Source: Bacteroidota bacterium (GTDB lineage Bacteria; Bacteroidota; Bacteroidia; UKL13-3). Taken from it: DNA of 64,000 nt. A program made the position numbers and the translations under genes. Numbering within the stretch: the first letter of the stretch is position 1; every line of letters starts with the position of its first letter. The stretch spans positions 1-64,000 of the forward strand of contig CANHGM010000003.1 in the NCBI GenBank assembly GCA_947460345.1, given 5' to 3'. Positions 1-4,892 of the stretch are shown here, one piece after another. The notes under the pieces were generated by a model. It ran no database searches. It worked only from the letters and a program-made list of their open reading frames with translations, and had not been told where the DNA came from.

Positions 1-7
1 ATAACAT

Positions 8-363: not shown

Positions 364-1524
364 TCATTCACGTTTAATTATATGTTTTTGTTTATAAGTA
401 ATAGACACAAGCTCCAGCCGTCCTTGTTTGCAGCAAGGGCATTGTAGCGGATCTTTGCCATAGCGTGAGGCAAACTTGATATACCAAGGCGTGTCTACTT
501 TGGGTGGATGAAGCGGTAGTTTGAGCGTGGAGAGTATATCATTGATACGGGTGGTGCGTTTATAGTTTTTATATATACCGTAAGAACGAATTTTGCAAAA
601 ACCCTTGGGCAATATATGTTGCGTAAACCTGCGTATAAACTCATATCCATCAAGTGTCATCATTGCCTTTTGTCCGCCTTTGTTATAGTTTTTATATTCA
701 AAAGTGACGCGGTTGTCATCATCTATATTTTTGATGCGGTGGTTGGTAATCGCTACTTTGTGGGTGTATCTGCCCAAGTATTCTATTACTTGTTCAGGTC
801 CGCCAAAAGGCTGTTTGGCATATACAATCCAGTCTTTGCTATAGAGTTTATTAAGCATGGATATACATGCATCGGTATCGGTTAGCTTGAGTTTATTCGT
901 GCGTATATATACTTTAAGTTGTTCTATCATTCTTGCCCGATAAACTTGTTGCATGGCTTGCACCGGATAAAGCGCTCTATACTTTACTTTCTTGCCCTCT
1001 ATCCATTTGCTTTGAGGGTTGAGTCCGCCACCGGTAACAATGCAATGCACATGTGGATGGTAAGAAAGCTGTTGCCCCCAAGTATGAAGAATGGAAATGA
1101 TGCCTGTTTCGGCTCCCATATACTTTTGGTCTGCCGAGAATCGCTTAAGTGTATAGGCACTTGTTTCGAACAGTAAACTATATAATTTTTTTTGGTTGCC
1201 CATAAACAAACTATTGAGTTCATGAGGAACCGTAAAAACGATATGATAATATTTGCATGGTAGAAGTTCGCGCATGCGAGCTTCTATCCAATCTTCTTTG
1301 CGCAGTGCACCACAACTCGGGCAATGACGGTTGCGACAGCTATGGTATTGCATCTGTTGGTTCTTGCAACTCTCCGCATTGCATGTATATAAGTGATAAC
1401 CCAAGGCTTGCGTGCGACACTCGGTGAGTTGATGTAACACATGGTGGGTAGGTTTGGGGGCATGCTCGTGCCAATTCGGAAGCCATTTTAAAAGCTTCTG
1501 AATACTAAATGCAGTCTCCATCAC
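364..1524 (-). CDS. tnpA: IS91-family transposase (HUH/Y2 rolling-circle type)
   Basis: A 386-residue transposase that nicks and religates single-stranded DNA at the ends of the element. An N-terminal zinc-binding domain shows Cys and His residues spaced through residues 36-71 (including C63, C68 and C71). The HUH metal-binding motif is HPHVH at 156-160. The catalytic tyrosines lie in YLGRY (Y249 and Y253), the paired-tyrosine arrangement of IS91. A short C-terminal CPCC motif near residue 364 resembles a further metal knuckle. Length is normal for the family and there are no internal stops, so the gene looks intact. It directly follows the tyrosine recombinase gene with no spacing, so the two are probably co-transcribed. 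Confidence 0.95.
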   Translation of the reverse strand: MMETAFSIQKLLKWLPNWHEHAPKPTHHVLHQLTECRTQALGYHLYTCNAESCKNQQMQYHSCRNRHCPSCGALRKEDWIEARMRELLPCKYYHIVFTVPHELNSLFMGNQKKLYSLLFETSAYTLKRFSADQKYMGAETGIISILHTWGQQLSYHPHVHCIVTGGGLNPQSKWIEGKKVKYRALYPVQAMQQVYRARMIEQLKVYIRTNKLKLTDTDACISMLNKLYSKDWIVYAKQPFGGPEQVIEYLGRYTHKVAITNHRIKNIDDDNRVTFEYKNYNKGGQKAMMTLDGYEFIRRFTQHILPKGFCKIRSYGIYKNYKRTTRINDILSTLKLPLHPPKVDTPWYIKFASRYGKDPLQCPCCKQGRLELVSITYKQKHIIKRE

Positions 1525-2376
1525 TTATATATTCTTCACATCCAATGGCACTCTTTCGAGTTCGTTTTGATTGTATAATTTGTCGAGCGGAGAAACAATG
1601 CCCATGCGTTTTTTGCTTTGCAGATGAAGGTATATCATAGTCGTTTCAATTTTTGAATGACCAAGCAGTTCTTTGATAGTATGAAGGTCGGTTCCTGCAT
1701 CAAGCATGTGGGTGGCAAAGCTGTGGCGGAGGGTATGTGCACTATAGCCTTTGTCTTTGAGCCCTGCTGTCACAAAGGCTCGGTTTAAGTGCCATTGAGC
1801 TGCTCGTGGGTGTATATATTTTTCGGGAGTTTTGCCTTCGAATAAGTATACTTTAGGTTTGTATATCACCCAATATTCTCTGAGTGTTTGCAGACAAGTA
1901 GAGGATAGTAGCAGTCGCCTGTCTTTGCGTCCTTTGCCTCCGCGTAATTGTATATACATTTCCTTTGAGTTGATATCTTTGATGAGAATCTTGGTACATT
2001 CCTCTAATCGCACACCGGTAGAATAAAAGAACTCGATAAAGGCACGTTGCTTTAGGTTCTCGCACGAGGCAATCAAATGTTTTACTTCTTCCTCTGTCAT
2101 GATATTGGGAAGTTTGAATGCCTTTTTGGGATAGAGTTTACTGGGAAGTATATATGGTTTCTTGGCCACATGTTTGAAGAAGAAGCTCAAAGCATGAGCA
2201 GTCATTCGGCATTTATCTCTGCCACTGCCAAGGGTGTTCTTGAGATAAAGTATATAATCTTCTATCTCGGAAGTTGTTACCTCGCTTGCAGACTTTTCAG
2301 GGTAGTACTCTGCAATAAATCGAATTTCACGCACATAGTTGCGGATACTGCTTGGAGCATAATCGCCCACCTGCAT
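1525..2376 (-). CDS. Tyrosine recombinase (XerC/D-like integrase) linked to IS91 element
   Basis: A 283-residue site-specific recombinase. An N-terminal SAM-like core-binding domain covers about residues 1-85, followed by the catalytic domain with R123 (GVRLEE), K148, H214-x-x-R217 (HTLRH), H240 (LGH) and nucleophile Y249. All catalytic residues are present. IS91-family elements in Bacteroidota and Proteobacteria often carry such a companion integrase. The chosen ATG gives a slightly short N terminus. In-frame coding-like sequence (HEGSQAEIAQLIKI) extends upstream to an A9 run at 2421-2429, just after another ATG at 2430-2432 that is one frame away, so a slippage-based longer product is possible. 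Confidence 0.92.
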   Translation of the reverse strand: MQVGDYAPSSIRNYVREIRFIAEYYPEKSASEVTTSEIEDYILYLKNTLGSGRDKCRMTAHALSFFFKHVAKKPYILPSKLYPKKAFKLPNIMTEEEVKHLIASCENLKQRAFIEFFYSTGVRLEECTKILIKDINSKEMYIQLRGGKGRKDRRLLLSSTCLQTLREYWVIYKPKVYLFEGKTPEKYIHPRAAQWHLNRAFVTAGLKDKGYSAHTLRHSFATHMLDAGTDLHTIKELLGHSKIETTMIYLHLQSKKRMGIVSPLDKLYNQNELERVPLDVKNI

Positions 2377-2514
2377 GATTTTGATAAGTTGGGCTATCTC
2401 TGCTTGAGAGCCCTCATGGATTTTTTTTTCATGATGTAATTGATTTAGTTTTATATTTGTTTAATGAACTTAAACACGAATGTATATATTTTCGTAAGTA
2501 TGATATATGCGATT

Positions 2515-2535
2515 CTCCCTGCCGTGAGGCGGGAG
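2515..2535. repeat. GC-rich hairpin at right border of IS91-like element
   Basis: CTCCC-T-GCC at 2515-2523 pairs with GGC-GGGAG at 2528-2535 around GTGA, with one bulged T. It sits between the integrase upstream region and the attC-like site and is a good candidate for the subterminal hairpin of an IS91 ori or ter end. Confidence 0.5.
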
Positions 2536-2538
2536 TTT

Positions 2539-2597
2539 CAGTTCAACAGCACCTATGCGCCATTAAAACGAGCGCATAGCTGCAAAACGTTATGCGG
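2539..2597. repeat. attC-like integron recombination site, short form (upstream of cassette)
   Basis: The site reads from outer arm CAGTTCAAC and AACAGCAC (2545-2552), through a perfect 8-bp stem CTATGCGC/GCGCATAG (2553-2560 with 2572-2579), to CTGCAAAACG (2580-2589) and then TTATGCGG. Folded, it leaves unpaired bases on one arm only, as the extrahelical bases of attC do. Cleavage in integrons falls after the G of GTT, here after 2589. The outer left arm (complement GTTGAACTG) does not pair with the TTATGCGG on the right, as expected when each half belongs to a different cassette. The matching half was lost or displaced by the IS91 element. Confidence 0.75.
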
Positions 2598-2667
2598 CAT
2601 GCTATGACGACACACAAGACGACAGACATAGGGACGACCAACCAACAAATTTTAAATGAACTATTTC

Positions 2668-2675
2668 TATATTTG
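2668..2675 (+). promoter_or_regulatory. -7 box TATATTTG of cassette genes
   Basis: This is a perfect Bacteroidota TAnnTTTG box ending five bases before the ATG at 2681, so transcription would start at or next to the start codon (leaderless mRNA). No convincing -33 TTTG was found. Confidence 0.55.
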
Positions 2676-2680
2676 ACACC

Positions 2681-2887
2681 ATGACGCAGACAAAAAAAGT
2701 AATCATATTTATCGCAACTATTGTTGTTGTTCTATTTTTAAACATGGTATTAATGATTTATGAAAGCAAAACAGGTTTGCGACTTAGCCGCTGGCTGACC
2801 TTTATTGTTCCAATAGGAATTGCATATTTTGTAATTTTCAAATCAGGCAATGACAATAAACCCAAAAATGAAAAAAGCCATGAATGA
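2681..2887 (+). CDS. Small membrane protein, first gene of integron cassette
   Basis: A 68-residue protein with two hydrophobic segments (about residues 7-27 and 39-53) and a charged, Lys/Asn-rich C-terminal tail. Family not recognised. The ATG lies five bases after a -7 box, which supports this start. The 3' end overlaps the next gene by a few codons in another frame, suggesting translational coupling. Function unknown; because it travels in an integron-type cassette, an accessory envelope role is possible but not shown. Confidence 0.6.
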   Translation: MTQTKKVIIFIATIVVVLFLNMVLMIYESKTGLRLSRWLTFIVPIGIAYFVIFKSGNDNKPKNEKSHE

Positions 2888-4067
2888 CTTCAATCTAAAA
2901 ATTAAAAAATATTTTATATGTGCTTTAACCAGTTTCATATTTCTATTGACAAGTCAACATTCGTATAGTCAAGATTATTTTGAGTTCAAAAATCCTTCGT
3001 TTTCATTTTCTATTCCAAACGGATGGAAAGAATATAATAAAAACCCATCATTACTCATGTATGGAAAATATGTTAAGGTAAATAATGGAATAATAGGCGG
3101 TATTTTAAGGGTTGGGCAAGACATCTATACAGGAAGTCTTGAAACCATATGGAGCCTAAATCCAGAGGCAGAGAAGAAAGAATTGGAAAAAGAAGCAACC
3201 TTACGAAATTTCAGTTTTGCAAAAGAAACGATTAATGGACTTAAAACAGTAAAAATAAATTTTGAGACTACTATTGGTGAAAATGATAAACGCAAGGAGT
3301 TTAAGGCTGTAATTTATAAGTTCCTTGTAAAACAAGACAAAAAAGAGCATGTTATTTTCTTTTTTCTAATCACTGACCCGAAGGATTTCAATAACGACAA
3401 TAATGATTTATTGAAAATAATTTCAACATTAAATTTAACATCACAAAAGACAATTTTTAACTCTCAAAAAGAAGTTCAGTTCAAGCAGAAAAAATATACA
3501 ATTTCTAAACCAGTTGACTATGATTACTTTTCCAATTCAGTTTTCAAAGACATGAAAATTAATGAGTTTACAAAAACTTATTGTTTCACAGATGATATTA
3601 GTATTTATGACTTTGAGCTGCTTGTTCCCAAAAAATTAAATGAACAACCGACAATTCATTTCTATACAATGAATGCACTCAAGGAACAAGAAGTTACGCC
3701 AGATAATTTTGTGGAATATAAACTATTTTGGAAAGAAATGTATGAAAAATCAAACTATGAAAAACTATTAAATAGTATAATTTCAGATAGTCTTTTGTTC
3801 TGTAAGTACGAATTTTCGGACACCAAGCCAATGACATTTACGCATCTTAAGGATGAAAATAAATTACTATCAACACTTGTTATAATTAATGCTAAAACTG
3901 AAATTGAGGTAATAAAGAAAATATCTATTACAAATTACATCTATTTAAACGATATTGTAATTTTCATTAAGTTAACTCAAGACTATAAAACCTTTTCCGA
4001 CATAGAAAAAATTCAAAACAAGTCTAACGTTATTGTTTCAGAATTTCTTAAAAATAACGACAAATGA
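2880..4067 (+). CDS. Secreted hypothetical protein, second gene of integron cassette
   Basis: About 395 residues. A signal peptide is visible (basic start, hydrophobic core FICALTSFIFLLTS, cleavage near HSYSQ), so the protein is exported. The mature N terminus (FEFKNPSFSFSIPNGWKEY) resembles the opening of PsbP/MOG1-like lipid-facing folds found in many Bacteroidota secreted proteins, but I cannot assign a family. In-frame ATGs exist at 2850, 2868 and 2880. The last is chosen because it gives the best signal peptide and only an 8-base overlap with the preceding gene. The stop overlaps the start of the third gene by four bases (ATGA). Confidence 0.7.
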   Translation: MNDFNLKIKKYFICALTSFIFLLTSQHSYSQDYFEFKNPSFSFSIPNGWKEYNKNPSLLMYGKYVKVNNGIIGGILRVGQDIYTGSLETIWSLNPEAEKKELEKEATLRNFSFAKETINGLKTVKINFETTIGENDKRKEFKAVIYKFLVKQDKKEHVIFFFLITDPKDFNNDNNDLLKIISTLNLTSQKTIFNSQKEVQFKQKKYTISKPVDYDYFSNSVFKDMKINEFTKTYCFTDDISIYDFELLVPKKLNEQPTIHFYTMNALKEQEVTPDNFVEYKLFWKEMYEKSNYEKLLNSIISDSLLFCKYEFSDTKPMTFTHLKDENKLLSTLVIINAKTEIEVIKKISITNYIYLNDIVIFIKLTQDYKTFSDIEKIQNKSNVIVSEFLKNNDK

Positions 4068-4291
4068 AAACATCAGCAATAGTCCTCTTAATAATTGGTG
4101 TTCTGCTATTACTTATGCAATATGCAGCATACAAGGGTAATGATTTTCAATTTCCAGCTTTCTACAAAGGTGACGACTTTGTAACATCACTATCAATTAA
4201 CTCCGGTAAAATAATTGGCTATAACTTTTTTGGTTTACTCGGACTTATTTTAATCATAATTGCTATGACAAGAAAATCAAAGCCCAAATGA
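4064..4291 (+). CDS. Small two-helix membrane protein, third gene of integron cassette
   Basis: A 75-residue protein with hydrophobic segments at about residues 4-23 and 52-68 and a short basic C terminus (TRKSKPK). Its ATG overlaps the TGA of the preceding gene (ATGA), so translation is probably coupled. Its stop lies 15 bases before the attC-like site, the usual position of the last gene in an integron cassette. No family recognised. Confidence 0.65.
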   Translation: MKTSAIVLLIIGVLLLLMQYAAYKGNDFQFPAFYKGDDFVTSLSINSGKIIGYNFFGLLGLILIIIAMTRKSKPK

Positions 4292-4305
4292 GACAAGAAG
4301 CACGA

Positions 4306-4440
4306 CCGCATAACAGCACATTGGCAATAGGCGGGGTTTCGTCTTCGCTTGACAGTTTTGTGGTAGCCGAAAGTTCAGTTCTCCGAACTAACTTTTGTGC
4401 TAAAAAGCCCGCCCATCGCCAATCTGCAAAACGTCAAACT
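4306..4440. repeat. attC-like integron recombination site, long form (end of cassette)
   Basis: Outer arm CCGCATAAC at 4306-4314 overlaps AACAGCAC at 4312-4319. Inner arms 4320-4335 and 4408-4423 are complementary at 14 of 16 positions, the other two being G-T pairs. CTGCAAAACG follows at 4424-4433, then TCAAACTG. AACAGCAC and CTGCAAAACG are identical to those in the site at 2539-2597. The region between the arms is a 72-base variable structure with its own small hairpin (AGTTC/GAACT). The base after the cut is TC instead of TT, as may occur when the following cassette is degenerate. Confidence 0.8.
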
Positions 4441-4603
4441 GTCTAAAAACTAAAAAATGCAACCAATTTTAAATAAGTTATTCGGACTCCTATCTTTGAA
4501 AAATAATTATATTCAAATCTCAGAGCATTGTTTCTGAGTTTTCAGACAGACTGACGTTTTAAGCAACCTTAAAATAGAACTTGACAAGTTGAAAATTAGA
4601 ATC

Positions 4604-4611
4604 TATATTTG
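4604..4611 (+). promoter_or_regulatory. -7 box TATATTTG before DUF4160 pseudogene
   Basis: Perfect TAnnTTTG box three bases before the ATG at 4615, again implying a leaderless transcript like that of the neighbouring cassette. Confidence 0.45.
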
Positions 4612-4614
4612 CTT

Positions 4615-4892
4615 ATGCCTAAAATTACTATTTATAAATTTCTGACTTTTTAAATTTTCGTCTACGATGCGCTAATGAGCCACCGCATTTGCATATTGTT
4701 AAAGAAAAAGAAAATCGACAACGTTCTGCAAAAGTTTGGTTGGAGACTTTTAAAGTTGTTGAAAAAGTTACACTAAACGAGAAGTAATAAAATCAAGCAA
4801 TTAGTTTGATTAAAAAGAATCAAACAATACTAATTGAATCGTTTAATAAGGTAAAAAATGGTCAAAGAATAACCACTATAAAATTAAAATAA
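4615..4892 (+). pseudogene. Broken DUF4160 protein gene
   Basis: The reading MPKITIYKFLTF, then IFVYDA, then NEPPHLHIVKEKENRQ, continuing to ITTIKLK, matches the layout of DUF4160 proteins (short proteins with a PHIHV-like motif, often paired with DUF2442 in toxin-antitoxin-like operons). Lesions: an in-frame TAA at 4651-4653, a two-base GC insertion after 4669 (GATGCGCTAAT where GATGCTAAT is expected), and a double stop near 4783. The promoter and start are still present. A 22-codon ORF follows directly at 4893-4958. It may be the start of a lost partner gene, and I could not confirm a family for it. The remnant lies just downstream of the attC-like site and may be a degenerate cassette. Confidence 0.7.

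Follow-up and report, generated by a model that had tools for sequence, protein, structure and literature searches.

Near the start of a Bacteroidota contig, between positions 2590 and 4433, lie three small genes flanked by two hairpin-forming repeats. Is this segment a gene cassette of the integron type and, if so, which recombinase would move it? An earlier note, made from the sequence alone, had read it as a complete but solitary cassette with no IntI-type integrase nearby. We re-examined it within the whole stretch of 64,000 nucleotides that was analyzed (the window), together with the remainder of the genome and with related genomes.

The cassette and its boundary sites

The analysis confirmed 2590–4433 (forward strand, 1844 bp) as an integron-type gene cassette with attC at both boundaries. 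The two sites share the identical blocks AACAGCAC (2545–2552 and 4312–4319) and CTGCAAAACG (2580–2589 and 4424–4433), and the R box at the cassette start, GTTATGCGG at 2589, is exactly complementary to the R'' box of the far site, CCGCATAAC at 4306–4314; both observations had been made before and both hold. From these boundaries we infer crossovers of the G|TT type at 2589/2590 and 4433/4434.

The far site, attC2 (4306–4440, forward strand), measures 122 bp from AAC to CG, and its R' box, GTCAAAC, is degenerate and marks the end of the array. The covariance-model search of both sites that the earlier note had called for recovered each of them: attC2 scored 137 bits (E 1.3e-33) and attC1 scored 42 bits (2542–2591, bottom strand) against a model built from 38 sites of the host family, among them attC2 but not attC1. 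A site up to 98% identical to attC2 over 127 bp occurs in another genus. When folded as bottom-strand DNA, attC2 forms a 16-pair stem, including the two G-T pairs noticed earlier in its inner arms, and, beyond a G.G mismatch, an L box of three pairs. The near site, attC1 (2545–2596, forward strand), is the 3' part of an interrupted site and retains the AAC of R'', L'', the loop, L' and R' (GTTATGC); it folds at −13.4 kcal/mol on the bottom strand and −10.4 kcal/mol on the top strand. A chance origin of the sites is excluded by the model scores of 137 and 42 bits, together with the lack of any match to a simple attC1 pattern in 100 shuffles of the window.

As described previously, three overlapping open reading frames fill the cassette, all on the forward strand. 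The first (68 aa, 2681–2887) encodes hydrophobic segments, the third (75 aa, 4064–4291) encodes two such segments, and the second (405 aa, 2850–4067) begins with a signal-like hydrophobic segment; the product of the latter is probably secreted, and its real start codon may be among the ATGs that follow the annotated one. None of the three matched a family in Pfam or NCBIfam. The 405-aa protein is an orphan: it had one distant relative at E < 1e-3 among the 395 class genomes searched (in G009, 33% across 211 residues), and no relative was confirmed by peptide patterns in 84,980 species. Rfam searches of 2400–4700 returned chance-level matches only. Of the promoter that had been ascribed to the cassette, the TATATTTG box at 2668–2675, its sole basis, is present but a clear −33 box is absent.

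The IS91-family element at the left boundary and the window genome

The left boundary is a real attC, as had been claimed, but its R'' box is interrupted, and the apparent R'' box, CAGTTCAAC, is not native; it is the end of an IS91-family element joined to AAC. attC1 is cut within R'' by this element, which, by analogy with copies in the single-contig genome G062, occupies about 6–2544 on the reverse strand, with its right end, GTTTCAGTTC, at 2535–2544 and the junction GTTTCAGTTC|AACAGC at 2544/2545; these boundaries were set from the G062 copies L101, L102 and L106. The element carries a Y2/HUH transposase with a zinc-binding domain (386 aa, 364–1524, reverse strand; NF033538 at 419.6 bits against a cut-off of 125, PF04986 and PF14319) and, as an accessory gene, a tyrosine recombinase (283 aa, 1525–2376, reverse strand; PF00589, and TIGR02249 at 167.8 bits, below the cut-off of 265). 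This pair, at 364–2376, had been overlooked in the earlier reading. That no IntI is nearby remains correct, and indeed none was found in the genome, but a non-IntI tyrosine recombinase lies next to the cassette; it lacks the IntI insert, and the spacing between the catalytic K and H motifs in recombinases of the IS91 type has a median of 66 residues compared to 107 in IntI.

Comparison of the several related elements in G062 defines their ends: on the left, ...CTAAC or ATAAC | AAATAGCG..., and on the right, ...GGTTTAGTTC | AACAGC.... Given these ends, the element sits inside the attC R'' box, between TAAC and AGC, with AAC on either side. Three G062 copies have TAAC as their left flank. In the window, 5 bases separate the left end of the element from the start of the contig (C3), which coincides with window base 1, and the ATAAC at 1–5 (forward strand) is, by the same analogy, the probable left remnant of the interrupted R'' box. 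Within the family, 17 of 18 places with IS91-type ends or recombinase/transposase pairs abut an attC recognized by the model (the exception is L104), several of these places having the shared end motif on the contig rather than the whole element. The junction pattern with two mismatches gave mostly noise; matches were kept only if an attC came after them or element genes were beside them. IS91-family insertions adjoin a GAAC or CAAG tetranucleotide. Elements of the family that carry an accessory tyrosine recombinase seem to be directed to attC at R'', and we know of no report of IS91-family elements behaving in this way. Elements of this kind adjoining attC were seen at 6–2544 of the window and at L101, L102, L105, L106, L107, L109, L144–L151 and L157. 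A separate candidate reading, attC1 as an attI whose upstream sequence recurs in other genomes, was rejected: the G062 copies show that sequence to be the right end of an IS91-type element.

The recombinase at 1525–2376 could also be taken for the cassette integrase itself, standing beside attC1 as intI stands beside attI. It is related to IntI and Xer, and its gene, with a start 169 bp away from attC1, points away from the cassette in the manner of classical integrons. However, the gene travels with an IS91 transposase, the pair is found inside attC R'' boxes at many sites, and the arrays of relatives follow a recombinase of another clade (TyrR350, below), all of which makes this assignment improbable.

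The cassette is not solitary, contrary to what had been proposed: the genome carries eight attC sites at E ≤ 1e-5 (a pair in the window, three on C45, and single sites on C14, C18 and C22), and sites of this type are common in the phylum. Contigs C3, C45 and C22 have ends at or next to an attC. Neither TyrR350 nor IntI was found in the genome, in which the best match was the recombinase of the IS91-type element. Because there are eight attC sites and neither integrase, the genome is a CALIN, the label that had been suggested, provided that the 99.3% complete assembly did not lose an integrase in a gap; two or more attC sites occur here with no integron integrase nearby. Elsewhere in the same genome, a degenerate attC (C18, L004 8820–8935) immediately follows a gene whose product is probably a secreted metalloprotease, perhaps a fossil cassette.

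The attC family, its arrays and TyrR350

With the joined site as query, matches to this attC type were found in 53 of the 64 genomes of the host's order, which comprises one family; many had a length of 122 bp, with identities of up to 98%. A first finder based on regular expressions missed many sites and was replaced by the covariance model, made from an alignment of 38 diverse sites. The type was thereby detected in 139 of 396 Bacteroidota genomes, often in long arrays, including those of Flavobacterium, Chryseobacterium, Kaistella, Pedobacter and Lunatimonas as well as many MAGs. It was also seen on contigs binned into Brocadiaceae, Limnohabitans, Deltaproteobacteria, Sphingomonadales and Methylococcaceae MAGs (L195, L202, L219, L229, L236), through either misbinning or transfer.

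Folding, covariation and model matches agree on the R/L-box hairpin of integron cassettes. In the 38-site alignment, both sides change in 14 of the 19 stem pairs, and pairing holds in 96% of cells; covariation scores 0.562, compared to 0.158 when shuffled and at most 0.098 when slid. A G-T wobble occupies one stem position in 36 of 37 scorable sites and a second position in 27 of 38. Such wobbles are concentrated on the bottom strand (72 versus 12 on the top strand across the 38 sites), which is the more stable fold in 31 of 38. In canonical attC sites, extrahelical bases direct strand choice (PMC2727003); in contrast, the folded bottom strand has no one-sided base in the stem of 34 of the 38 sites, which instead have a symmetric position, mostly a G.G mismatch.

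The arrays of relatives begin directly behind a tyrosine recombinase of approximately 350 residues, here termed TyrR350, and share its orientation. Across consecutive sites, 82 of 84 positions matched in the expected exchange of R boxes (48.8 ± 4.2 when shuffled), and in a second set of 62 cassettes, a few of which also belong to the first set, 328 of 372 positions did so (163 ± 9 when shuffled; 48 cassettes perfect). Complementarity of R'' and R' upon circularization, a hallmark of integron cassettes, is thus exact in the window and nearly so in relatives. Cassette length has a median of 1.0 kb, the longest reading frame runs in the array direction in 59 of 62, and arrays can be long, for example 16 attC sites in 20 kb at L312. 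At that locus, a TyrR350 gene that is split in two and carries internal stops (1430–1873; G439:C2:150830–151869) precedes the array of at least 16 cassettes, the integrase apparently having been lost after the array was built. Two further junctions were noted: an identical GTTCAGCAA follows three attC sites at L317 (G453:C2) in place of the cassette-specific R' box and may be where a further element, inserted at G|TT, ends, and GTCCAAGATCAAAA follows attC in two species (L102, about 8338, and C45 of the window genome, L330), perhaps as another element end or an array terminus.

An attI-like core, TATAAACAA|GTTA, lies about 95 nt past the TyrR350 stop codon. It was found behind 46 of 56 TyrR350-type genes, mostly 89–104 nt from the stop, compared to 9 of 344 other reading frames; the first cassette opens at the GTT after this core, and its start complements the R'' box of the next attC. 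The attI beside the integrase gene that typifies canonical integrons therefore has a counterpart in relatives, and is absent from the window. TAnnTTTG, the −7 motif of Bacteroidota promoters, occurs within 100 nt of the TyrR350 stop in 24 of the 56 (2.5 in shuffles), mostly 82–93 nt before the crossover, and is a candidate cassette promoter.

These regularities bear on the possibility that the repeats are a hairpin family spread by transposition (REP-like or IS200-type non-autonomous elements) and not recombination sites at all. The sites are indeed palindromic, repetitive and very alike between species. Yet a repeat family of this kind would predict neither the exact complementarity of a 3' flank to the next 5' flank, nor an attI core at a fixed place after a recombinase gene, nor genes whose direction follows the array, and we consider it highly implausible.

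TyrR350 is not a canonical integron integrase. It lacks the 41-residue IntI insert that carries the I2 helix, its K-to-H spacing has a median of 66 residues versus 107 in IntI, and the IntI profile TIGR02249 matches it in two pieces, skipping about positions 180–237. Its catalytic residues are invariant in 17 sequences. TyrR350 sequences form a clade with support of 98, apart from an IntI clade with support of 100, in a quick tree with some long branches. Most of those tested had NF040815 (XerA / integron integrase) as best family match, and among solved structures XerA-type recombinases and IntI4 are the closest in sequence. An AlphaFold2 model (pLDDT 81; pTM 0.51, so that the domain arrangement is uncertain) likewise best matched IntI4 (2A3V) and then XerA. 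The N-terminal domain gave only weak leads in Pfam (DUF5710, E 0.027; HARP, E 0.13) and is a candidate reader of DNA structure. Within it (A2 alignment columns 101–170) an ARWS..LKAWHLPD motif was observed, apparently duplicated in L326. At L110, L067, L321 and L278, cassettes of the same type have on their 5' side recombinases that belong to other clades and likewise lack the IntI insert; these attC sites may be served by two or more I2-less lineages.

We then considered whether the sites could be of the ordinary attC kind and depend on a canonical IntI, encoded at another place in the cell or arriving from outside, with TyrR350 as an unrelated neighbor. A search with the attC model around eight TyrR350 genes gave 39 matches, a few of them opposite-strand echoes of one palindromic site, at seven of the eight loci and all on the 3' side, whereas none of this type occurred around 23 canonical IntI genes (225 kb, ten of the loci extending only about 1.5 kb); given that the model was built from host-family sites, this absence denotes specificity, not IntI arrays devoid of attC. 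In the 396 Bacteroidota genomes, sites were present in 37 of the 39 with a strong TyrR350 (E below 1e-110) compared to 102 of the 357 others (Fisher p = 1.7e-16, ignoring phylogeny). IntI showed no positive association with sites in the same genomes (27 of 108 versus 112 of 288); it exceeds the cut-off in 105 of them, and IntI and these sites co-occur in some genomes outside the host's class. In the host family, G005 does have an IntI above the cut-off, but it is the only one of 62 genomes to do so, and among the genomes listed for the class only G100 has one, without a site. The conserved attI core directly behind TyrR350, and sites without the extrahelical bases that I2 reads (PMC2727003, PMC7790495), also speak against service by canonical IntI, which we judge unlikely. 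The 102 genomes that have sites without a strong TyrR350 may be CALIN, carry other array-linked recombinases (as at L110, L321 and L278) or be incompletely assembled; given these genomes, TyrR350 may not be the sole integrase.

Overall, the window most likely holds a cassette of a Bacteroidota integron system with TyrR350 upstream of its arrays, stranded without its integrase; we put the probability of this reading at roughly 85%. In the complete system, TyrR350 lies upstream of the array and in the same direction, with the attI-like core about 95 nt past its stop codon and the cassettes, each ending in an attC of approximately 122 bp, queued behind it. TyrR350 would recombine the folded bottom strand of an attC with double-stranded attI, or with another attC, at G|TT; each cassette would carry its R' half, such that the complementary R''/R' pair is restored on circularization. 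Since TyrR350 lacks I2 and the sites lack extrahelical bases, strand choice would work in another way; candidate means are the N-terminal domain of TyrR350 and the conserved wobbles specific to the bottom strand. The window further shows an IS91-family element that targets attC and has jumped into the R'' box of attC1. Function of the promoter and any present mobility of the window cassette are likewise what we infer from this arrangement.

Relation to known integrons

By anatomy, the TyrR350 system is integron-like, but it departs from canonical integrons in two defining features. Definitions of the integron integrase require an additional domain (PMC9668308, PMC8352920), and an intI gene encoding this domain with its I2 helix is present neither in the window genome nor in the form of TyrR350; the second feature is the extrahelical bases of attC. 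The prevailing theory derives integrons from a Xer-like recombinase that acquired the I2 helix, by means of which the extrahelical bases of attC are read (PMC7790495). In this theory I2 also prevents a deleterious second-strand exchange; its deletion abolishes the function of IntI1 (PMC7790495). We lean, with somewhat better than even odds, towards a separate class of Bacteroidota integrons that recombines attC hairpins without I2 or extrahelical bases, selects the strand through bottom-strand G-T wobbles and perhaps also the N-terminal domain, represents either an ancestral pre-I2 state or an independent invention, and has its own attC-hunting IS91-type transposon. If true, such a natural integron would provide a direct test of the I2-based theory of origin.

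In Bacteroidetes, IntegronFinder 2.0 reported one complete integron, in Salinibacter ruber, where earlier work had found In0 elements only (PMC9024848); judged by criteria based on IntI, the phylum was thereby reported to be nearly free of integrons. No description of an I2-less Bacteroidota integron system was found in the open-access full-text literature, a scope that excludes bioRxiv and most subscription papers, and the TyrR350 system is a widespread integron type of this phylum that has apparently not been described before. Surveys based on IntI (PMC9024848) would then have missed a large reservoir of cassettes in a major phylum, to which Flavobacterium, Chryseobacterium, Kaistella and Pedobacter belong.

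Several known systems share parts of this arrangement. The IS91 family has the same Y2_Tnp and Zn_Tnp_IS91 transposase and a hairpin near one end, but the element described here also carries a tyrosine recombinase and adjoins attC, between the TAAC and AGC of R''. XerA, XerC and XerD share their spacing with the catalytic domain of TyrR350, to which the latter adds an N-terminal domain, an adjacent attI-like site and a cassette array. CALIN are clusters of attC sites lacking an integron integrase (PMC9024848); the window genome likewise has several attC sites and no integrase, but its attC type is devoid of extrahelical bases. Inverted integrons, in which IntI is in reverse orientation, are typical of Spirochaetota (PMC9668308, PMC8352920) and also transcribe their integrase toward the cassettes, though theirs is an IntI with the additional domain. 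The layout also resembles that of the sedentary chromosomal IntI integrons, including the large arrays of Vibrio: one attC per cassette, the order of R and L boxes, the G|TT rule, an unpaired central spacer, long arrays, genes in the array direction and an attC length that is near-constant within a lineage are all held in common. In contrast to these integrons, TyrR350 has no additional domain or I2 helix and falls in a separate clade, its attC sites have no extrahelical bases, and its gene shares the direction of the array and has attI at the 3' end.
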